A stretch of 64,000 nt of DNA. It comes from Planctomycetaceae bacterium (GTDB lineage: Bacteria; Planctomycetota; Planctomycetia; Pirellulales; Pirellulaceae). Made by a program: the position numbers and the translations under genes. Shown here in pieces: positions 31,268-33,676 of the stretch (position 1 is the first letter of the stretch; each line of letters starts with the position of its first letter). Below the pieces are notes generated by a model, which was not told the DNA's origin, did no database searches, and saw only the letters and a program-made list of their open reading frames with translations. The stretch is taken from assembly GCA_002709225.1 (NCBI GenBank), contig PAQH01000046.1, positions 1 through 64,000 on the forward strand, read 5' to 3'.

Positions 31268-32113
31268 ATGCGCACTCCGGCTGACGAGCTCCTCCAGATC
31301 GATAACCCCATCCGGCTCGAATCGGGCACACTCCTACTGGCATTTTATGGCTGGATGGACGGGGGCGATGCTTCTACCGGTACAGTGGAACGTCTTCGTA
31401 AGCAACTCGATGCCCAACCTTTTGCTCGCATCTGCGGAGACCCGTTCTACGTCTACCACGTACCGGGAGACATGGAAGTTGCGGTCCGCACGCGTCCCCA
31501 CATCGAGATCGAAGAGGGGCTGGTCAAGAAGATCGAAATGCCGACGAACATCTTCTACAGCCACAAAGCGTCGAATCTCGCGTTATTTGTCGGCCGTGAA
31601 CCAAACATGCAATGGGAGGCCTTTGGAAAGTGCATCTTCAAGCTGGCGTCTGAAACCGGCATTTCGCGAATCTTATTCGTCGGTTCATTCGGTGGTACCG
31701 TTCCACACACCCGCGAACCGCGGCTCTACATCACTGCGTCAAGCGAAAAAGTGCTGGCAGATATGGAATCCTATGGGATGCGACGCAGTGGGTATGAGGG
31801 GCCAGGTTCGTTTACCACGTATCTTATGTCACAAGCGCCTCATGTCGGATTAGAAATGGGCTCGCTGGTCGCGGAAATCCCCGGTTATCTGAATGTGACC
31901 AATCCGGCCAGTATCGAAGCCGTCACACGACGACTGGCCAAACTACTGGACCTGCCGGTAAAACTCGATCCTTTGATCACAGAAAGTACGCGCTGGGAAT
32001 TTGAGATTTCCAAGGTTGTCGAAGAGAATGAGAATTCGGAGCTGGCAAGCCAGATTCGTCAGTGGGAAGAAGATTACGATAACGACTTACTGGACCGCGA
32101 ATCGGACTCCTGA
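31268..32113 (+). CDS. PAC2-family protein
   Basis: A 281-residue member of the PAC2 family, named for a eukaryotic proteasome assembly chaperone; in bacteria the role is unsettled. Sequence marks are LLLAFYGWMDGGDAS, FYVYHVPGDMEVAVRTRPHIEI, NIFYSHKASNLALFVGREPN, ILFVGSFGGTVPHTREP and YEGPGSFTTYLM. No signal peptide is present, so it is cytosolic. The C-terminal tail is acidic. There is no SD, and a -10-like TATACT ends 6 bases before the start codon. It is followed by the glutamine-synthetase-like gene after 159 bases on the same strand. Confidence 0.88.
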   Translation: MRTPADELLQIDNPIRLESGTLLLAFYGWMDGGDASTGTVERLRKQLDAQPFARICGDPFYVYHVPGDMEVAVRTRPHIEIEEGLVKKIEMPTNIFYSHKASNLALFVGREPNMQWEAFGKCIFKLASETGISRILFVGSFGGTVPHTREPRLYITASSEKVLADMESYGMRRSGYEGPGSFTTYLMSQAPHVGLEMGSLVAEIPGYLNVTNPASIEAVTRRLAKLLDLPVKLDPLITESTRWEFEISKVVEENENSELASQIRQWEEDYDNDLLDRESDS

Positions 32114-32272: not shown

Positions 32273-33676
32273 TTGCCCGTGACAACACCTCAGAAAATCC
32301 TTGCTCTGTGCCGTGAAAACGATGTGAAAACCGTAGACATACGGTTTGTAGATCTTCCTGGCGCCTGGCATAGTCTCTCGATTCCGGTGTCCCGCCTGGA
32401 TGAAGAGCTGTTTGAAAATGGGCTCAAATTTGACGGGAAACGATTCCGTGGCTGGAACTCCGCAGCAGACGGCGATCGGGTCGCGATCCCCCAACCCGAT
32501 ACAGCGTTTCTTGACCCCTGCGGTGGCCCACCCACCCTGTCCATCATTGCCGACATCCACGACCCGGTTGCCGGAGACAACGATTTCTGTGATCCACGAA
32601 ATGTGGCCTGGAAAACATTGCATTATTTGAAAACAACAGCCATCGCCGATACGGCTCGTTTTGGGCCGGAAGTCGAATTTTGTCATTTCGACGGGCTGCT
32701 ATCCGCACATCGGTTGACGGGCTCCCGGTACCCGCGCGAGCACACCCCCGGTGCGCGACTCCCCGACATTGCGGCTGGCGTCCATTTGATTGAGGAATCG
32801 CTTACCCACGTCCAGAATGACTCTGGCACTGCGGACTCAACGCTGGAAATACGGCATGAGCTACTGCAAGTCATCTCCGCCTGTGGTCTCTCGGTGGAAT
32901 GCCAGCATCAGCTCACCGGCGCACAACCCCAAATGGTCAGCACGCTACAAGCAGACGAACTGGTTACCATGGCCGACGTTTTGATGCGTTACAAACACAT
33001 CGTCAAACGCGTCAGTTCACGCCATGGCCTGACAGCCACATTCATGCCCAAGCCCAGCCGCAGTCTGCCTGGCAACGGCATGCGCATACAGCTTTCACTC
33101 TGGAAAGACGACACACCACTGTTCGCAGGCACCGAATATGCCGGCCTTAGTGAAGTCGCACTACACGCGATCGGCGGCATCCTGAAACACGCCCCCAGCC
33201 TGGCCGCCTTCACCAATCCGACCACCAACAGCTACGCGCGGCTGCTACCCGAATCTGGGAGCCCTATCAACCTGGACTACTCGCGTCACGACGAGATGTC
33301 CGTCTGCCACATTCCCAGCCACAGTCCGATTTCTCAGGATCAACGCATTGAATTTCGCTTTCCCGACGCGAGTTGTAATCCCTATCTCGCATTCTCAGCT
33401 CTGTTGATGGCCGTGATCGACGGGATTCAAAACAAAATCCATCCGGGTGATCCCGCCAGTCCTAGTGACACATCGACACCCCTTCGAAAAACATTACCAA
33501 TCTCCCTGGCTGACGCGCTGACGGCTTTGCAAGAGGACCACGATTTCCTGTTGCGCGGAGATGTCTTCTCGGATGACATTTTGAATTCGTGGATCCGCAT
33601 GAAACGTGAAGAGGAAATTGAGCCGTTACGGCGAGAGACACATCCCTACGAAGTCAGCCTCTACTTTGACGTCTGA
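32273..33676 (+). CDS. Glutamine synthetase homologue lacking key catalytic residues
   Basis: A 467-residue protein that aligns along its length with type I glutamine synthetase. It keeps FDGKRFRGW, PDTAFLDPCGGPPTLSIIADIHDP, FGPEVEFCHFDG (metal Glu133 and Glu135), TFMPKP, NPTTNSYARLLP and QRIEFRFPDASCNPYLAFSALLM. The active site is otherwise dismantled. VECQHQLTGAQPQM (208-221) stands where HHEVA..GQ.E supplies two metal Glu. GNGMRIQLS (267-275) has Arg271 for the metal His. ESGSPINLDYS (327-337) lacks the flap Glu, and SRHDEMSVCHIP (337-348) lacks the Arg pair of RNRSASIRIP. The adenylylation Tyr region is also gone. It probably does not make glutamine; a regulatory role or another ligase reaction is possible. 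Start TTG 32273, or GTG 32279. Confidence 0.88.
   Translation: MPVTTPQKILALCRENDVKTVDIRFVDLPGAWHSLSIPVSRLDEELFENGLKFDGKRFRGWNSAADGDRVAIPQPDTAFLDPCGGPPTLSIIADIHDPVAGDNDFCDPRNVAWKTLHYLKTTAIADTARFGPEVEFCHFDGLLSAHRLTGSRYPREHTPGARLPDIAAGVHLIEESLTHVQNDSGTADSTLEIRHELLQVISACGLSVECQHQLTGAQPQMVSTLQADELVTMADVLMRYKHIVKRVSSRHGLTATFMPKPSRSLPGNGMRIQLSLWKDDTPLFAGTEYAGLSEVALHAIGGILKHAPSLAAFTNPTTNSYARLLPESGSPINLDYSRHDEMSVCHIPSHSPISQDQRIEFRFPDASCNPYLAFSALLMAVIDGIQNKIHPGDPASPSDTSTPLRKTLPISLADALTALQEDHDFLLRGDVFSDDILNSWIRMKREEEIEPLRRETHPYEVSLYFDV

Follow-up and report, generated by a model that had tools for sequence, protein, structure and literature searches.

Lengsin, a vertebrate lens protein that resembles type I glutamine synthetase (GS-I) and is thought to lack glutamine synthetase (GS) activity, provides a precedent for a pseudoenzyme derived from GS. 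Pseudoenzymes are usually thought to arise via gene duplication (PMC5106787). Among the closest bacterial systems, GlnA4 and PauA7 are GS-I-like enzymes altered at some catalytic positions, E327 and Y179 among them (PMC6529630), and in Bacillus the feedback-inhibited GS dodecamer binds GlnR and TnrA, so that it serves as a glutamine-responsive regulator (PMC9249791). Planctomycetes have been reported to contain a type II enzyme, GSIIB (PMC2978018). Here we examine a gene at 32273..33676 in a stretch of 64,000 nt (the window; contig PAQH01000046.1, Planctomycetaceae bacterium, family Pirellulaceae). By its sequence, it is a full-length GS-I homologue with its active site dismantled, as an initial annotation had proposed. 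We consider it probable, as the best explanation overall, that this GS-I was freed by a second GS, lost catalysis and was retained as a maintained protein.

Catalytic residues of the window protein

The frame is open throughout and encodes 467 residues from a TTG at 32273 or, more likely, 465 from a GTG at 32279, which better fits the ortholog in genome G001 of the same genus, whose protein begins VTTPQKIL. Both GS Pfam domains match the window protein (PF03951 over residues 17-98 and PF00120 over 106-464), which spans the N-terminal beta-grasp and C-terminal catalytic domains of a whole-length GS-I and is 46-52% identical to most GlnA of the order Pirellulales. On the GlnA equivalog model TIGR00653, the window protein scores 404.3 bits and the G001 ortholog 420.5, both short of the cut-off of 429.15, while intact Pirellulales GlnA reach 675-678 bits (n=2).

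The GS-I fold is predicted to be retained: an AlphaFold2 (AF2) model has a predicted local distance difference test score (pLDDT) of 70 and a predicted template modelling score (pTM) of 0.79, and its best PDB matches are GS-I, with TM scores of about 0.82-0.85. The low-confidence loops of this model, which was built from 18 sequences, were rejected as a sign of loss: with those sequences, an intact Pirellulales GlnA (pLDDT 75) gives similarly weak loops over nearly the same segments.

Residues are numbered as in E. coli GlnA (sequence identical to PDB 7w85), and all features lie on the + strand. The window protein keeps D50, E129, E131, G265, R321, R355, E357 and R359, and carries the replacements S53R, H211Q, E212L, E220V, N264P, H269R, H271Q, G325E, Y326S, E327G, R339E, R344H and K352Q. 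Much of the initial annotation's description of the site stands. Within the metal-ligand set of GlnA (E129, E131, E212, E220, H269 and E357), the pair E129 and E131 is kept (FGPEVEF, 32669..32677), as is E357 next to R359 (IEFRFPD, 33350..33358), and the metal histidine has become Arg in a segment that also holds N264P, H271Q and the retained G265 (33068..33091). The phosphoryl-transfer arginines R339 and R344 are both replaced (33293..33310), and the adenylylation segment around Y397 is deleted from the Y-loop region (33449..33481). Two details required correction. The other metal glutamates (32912..32938) are indeed replaced, by Leu at 212 and by Val, rather than Gln, at 220; the Q/L pair occupies positions 211/212. 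The flap glutamate E327 is lost from the window protein, together with G325 and Y326 (33245..33271), but aligns as Glu in G001.

Five regions form the GS active site, the D50, Y179, N, E-flap and Y loops (PMC9249791), and all five are altered here. The D50 loop (FDGKRFRGW, 32420..32464), where D50 stands beside S52K and S53R, is altered least, at 53% of the intact consensus versus 67% for E. coli GlnA. The other four have 7-47% identity to that consensus, with the Y179 loop region (32717..32833) rewritten to 15%. The core, at 64%, and the C-terminal thong region (33584..33673; role per PMC9249791), at 52%, are similar to those of E. coli GlnA (60% and 52%), and inter-ring contact via the thong may be kept.

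Our reference was a set of 87 GS-I taken as intact: 85 sequences of the order, that of E. coli and that of one gammaproteobacterium. In this set, 139 columns are near-invariant. The window protein retains 10 of the 20 catalytic columns compared with 88 of the 119 others (Fisher p 0.037); for the G001 ortholog the figures are 9/20 and 90/119 (p 0.008). Because E212, E220, H269 and both arginines are lost, ATP-dependent ligation is unlikely under established GS chemistry, and we infer that the window protein has no GS activity.

Selection on the altered protein

The only close ortholog of the window gene is that of G001, with 82% identity and an identical gene order. G001 is a separate metagenome-assembled genome (MAG) that is 98% complete, and its contig matches PBOG01000027.1 of Planctomycetaceae bacterium RS398; the window's own genome, G000, is 83% complete. 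E220V, H269R, H271Q and R344H are common to both proteins, so that these catalytic losses are older than the species split.

The pair has a nonsynonymous to synonymous rate ratio (dN/dS) of 0.14 by NG86 and 0.17 by YN00, at a dS of 0.75, with no stop or frameshift. Agreement between two separate MAGs, together with this dN/dS of 0.14, means that the dismantling is due neither to chance nor to sequencing error, and the earlier statement that this is not a decaying gene is borne out by the intact frame, the common losses and this ratio. Other dismantled pairs have dN/dS of 0.07-0.21; the exception is G075/G068, whose dS is near saturation and whose ratio is 0.29. Since the split, 7 of the 24 catalytic sites and 9 of the 115 other invariant sites have come to differ between the window protein and its ortholog (p 0.008), while intact GS-I pairs differ at 0-1 of the 24. 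The low dN/dS together with these site differences indicates selection on the protein but not on the old active site. With a fold kept in prediction, catalytic motifs lost and purifying selection acting, the window protein is a pseudoenzyme as far as the model of its structure holds; it is maintained and probably non-catalytic.

Other glutamine synthetases in the genus

A search of both genomes returned no GS-I in G000 or G001 beyond the dismantled copy. The initial annotation had proposed looking for a true glnA elsewhere; no intact one is found in either assembly, and what G001 does hold is a GSII. This eukaryote-type enzyme is present, with the expected motifs, in G001 and G002, the two remaining genomes of the genus. 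The G001 copy is cut by the contig end; the frame of G002 is free of internal stops, as is that of G014, in which a TAG directly follows the frame end.

G000 and G001 each carry two further GS-like genes, which bear on whether the window protein could be a neofunctional ligase, its active site rebuilt to make another gamma-glutamyl compound. The known GS-I-like ligases GlnA4 and PauA7 also replace D50 and E327, which lends the idea some plausibility. However, GlnA4 keeps its metal, glutamate and ATP residues (PMC6529630), and the two further genes likewise retain E129, E131, E212, E220, H269, R339 and R344 while carrying D50A and Trp or Gly at E327. The window protein is without E212, E220, H269 and both arginines, and we regard a ligase of this kind as very improbable. 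The two G000 paralogs (L001 and L002, on G000:C83 and C80; D50A with E327W or E327G) resemble gamma-glutamylamine ligases.

Recurrence in Pirellulaceae

We searched 241 genomes of the family, 160 of which have a match to the window protein; the larger survey table is enriched for odd sequences and serves for description only. Full-length dismantled GS-I were read in five genera (g1, g11, g24, g61 and g75) and partly altered forms in g13 and g27. Genomes with a dismantled GS-I hold GSII or GSIII; g61 has no GSII, and a GSIII gene stands beside its dismantled GS-I. In G063 and G064 these two genes lie close by on one strand (L115:206-3968, L116:2800-6999). In many Pirellulaceae, the GSII gene has GS-I as its direct neighbour (L087, L052, L145, L050, L153, L111).

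In a tree rooted on E. coli and gammaproteobacterial GlnA, the window pair is placed inside Pirellulaceae GS-I. A single clade of the window pair with G071 and G074 (g24) and G063 and G064 (g61) is rejected (approximately unbiased test, p-AU 0.006), and at least two origins of dismantled GS-I are therefore likely. Neither the merger of the window pair with g61 (p-AU 0.51) nor that with G071/G074 (p-AU 0.10) is rejected. A large tree, which unites the dismantled rows, all of them on long branches, was not relied upon.

The same survey bears on a slow decay of the gene, in which GS-I, redundant once GSII is present, is heading for loss and has no present function. Genus g24 offers a series of the expected kind, from intact GS-I (G069, G066, G076) through single losses (G065 E327K, G070 E212G) and dismantled copies (G071, G074, G075, G068) to genomes where none was detected (G025, G073, G078), and several GSII-bearing genomes likewise show no GS-I. 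Yet the losses in the window gene predate the G000/G001 split and the pair still has a low dN/dS without stop or frameshift, and full-length dismantled genes last across species in g11, g61 and g75. Decay is thus unlikely, though it is the strongest of the competing accounts.

For the family as a whole, we tentatively propose, at somewhat less than even confidence, that the presence of GSII or GSIII has on repeated occasions allowed the sole GS-I to become a maintained non-catalytic protein. Several independent GS pseudoenzymes would then be under selection for some function of the GS-I fold, with loss starting at the catalytic residues and some lineages subsequently losing the C-terminal thong. 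The thong is absent from the four dismantled GS-I of g11 that we inspected.

In the window, a PAC2-family gene (31268..32113) lies directly upstream of the GS gene, on its strand. This neighbourhood is common to the window and G001 only; elsewhere, where found, the PAC2 gene sits apart from GS. In g11, the strongly dismantled GS-I adjoins an M24 peptidase gene in 7 of 7 loci (L076, L117, L118, L119, L120, L121, L122), and an MMPL-family gene adjoins the altered GS-I of G028, G075 and G068 (L071:8950-11658, L125:1-2088, L126:3-1913). No single neighbour recurs across the dismantled lineages: the PAC2 protein belongs to g1, the M24 peptidase to g11 and the MMPL protein to G028 and G075/G068.

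Probable displacement and possible present role

The window gene descends from the GS-I (glnA) of its genus. Under the explanation we favor, the eukaryote-type GSII would have taken over glutamine synthesis, relieving GS-I of catalysis. Residues for metal binding and phosphoryl transfer would then have been lost along with the E flap and the Y loop, with the core, the thong region and the glutamate contacts E131, G265, R321 and R359 retained. The data show the descent, the residue losses and their presence in two species, the purifying selection, the GSII of relatives and the recurrence in the family. An association with GSII also favors this account: in 60 relatives taken unselected, 4 of 15 GS-I that accompany GSII are broken, versus 0 of 35 that do not (p 0.006). 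Displacement by GSII is our inferred cause of the catalytic loss, and displacement by an unrelated type of GS is a likelier route here than gene duplication.

Several points weigh against this explanation. GSII was not found in the G000 assembly, which is 83% complete and from which the entire 6 kb GSII-bearing stretch of G001 is also absent. The association with GSII, like our other Fisher tests, takes no account of phylogeny. The dN/dS of the window pair is relaxed relative to intact GS-I pairs (0.02-0.06 where estimable), which keeps some room for slow decay; neighbouring genes range from 0.02 to 0.11 (NG86). Some other dismantled lineages have lost glutamate-contacting residues, and a comparison of neighbourhoods showed no partner gene common to the dismantled lineages.

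The last two points limit what can be said of the present role, for which the initial annotation had suggested a regulator or ligand sensor. R359, which we take to be a further glutamate contact, is kept in both the window protein and G001, as are E131, G265 and R321, although the choice of these four was post hoc. In Gram-positive GS, a glutamate analogue is contacted by the equivalents of E131, G265 and R321 (PMC9249791; R321 is encoded at 33239..33241 here). That these contacts are retained is suggestive of amino-acid binding by the window protein, and to that extent the earlier suggestion fits. A regulatory role, by likeness to the feedback-inhibited GS, is a guess, given the contacts lost in other lineages and the lack of a known partner. 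Our best guess at the present role, though we hold it less likely than not, is an oligomer that binds glutamate or glutamine without catalysis and that regulates or scaffolds another nitrogen-metabolism protein. A structural or scaffolding protein that binds no ligand, as in lengsin, would agree with a core and thong region better kept than the active-site loops and with the contacts lost elsewhere; the four contacts kept in both species of the genus speak against it, and we judge it improbable, more so than decay.

Comparison with known systems

In the literature searched, we found neither a published GS pseudoenzyme in planctomycetes nor a maintained dismantled copy that is the only GS-I and recurs in one bacterial family with a second GS type. 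A pseudoenzyme derived from a central metabolic enzyme, without an intact paralog of the same type and in a family where a single genus spans the intact, half-broken and dismantled states, would amount to a natural experiment on pseudoenzyme origins and on GS-I roles besides catalysis. It also carries a warning for annotation: the dismantled GS-I of G063 passes the NCBI GlnA cut-off (438.8 versus 429.15 bits) and would be annotated as active.

The window protein shares with GlnA (TIGR00653) whole-length homology, both Pfam domains and the predicted GS-I fold, and differs in lacking E212, E220, H269, R339, R344, the flap Glu and Y397 and in falling below the cut-off. With GlnA4 and PauA7 it shares a GS-I-like sequence changed at catalytic positions. 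Those proteins, however, are enzymes in which D50 and E327 differ but the metal, glutamate and ATP residues stay, whereas the window protein retains D50 and has losses among its metal and phosphoryl-transfer residues, and so falls outside their group. The Bacillus GS offers a precedent for regulation through GlnR and TnrA, but the corresponding regions are altered in the window protein and no such partner has been identified. Lengsin, finally, is an animal, lens-specific protein, whereas the present case is bacterial, stands in place of the only GS-I and recurs within one family.
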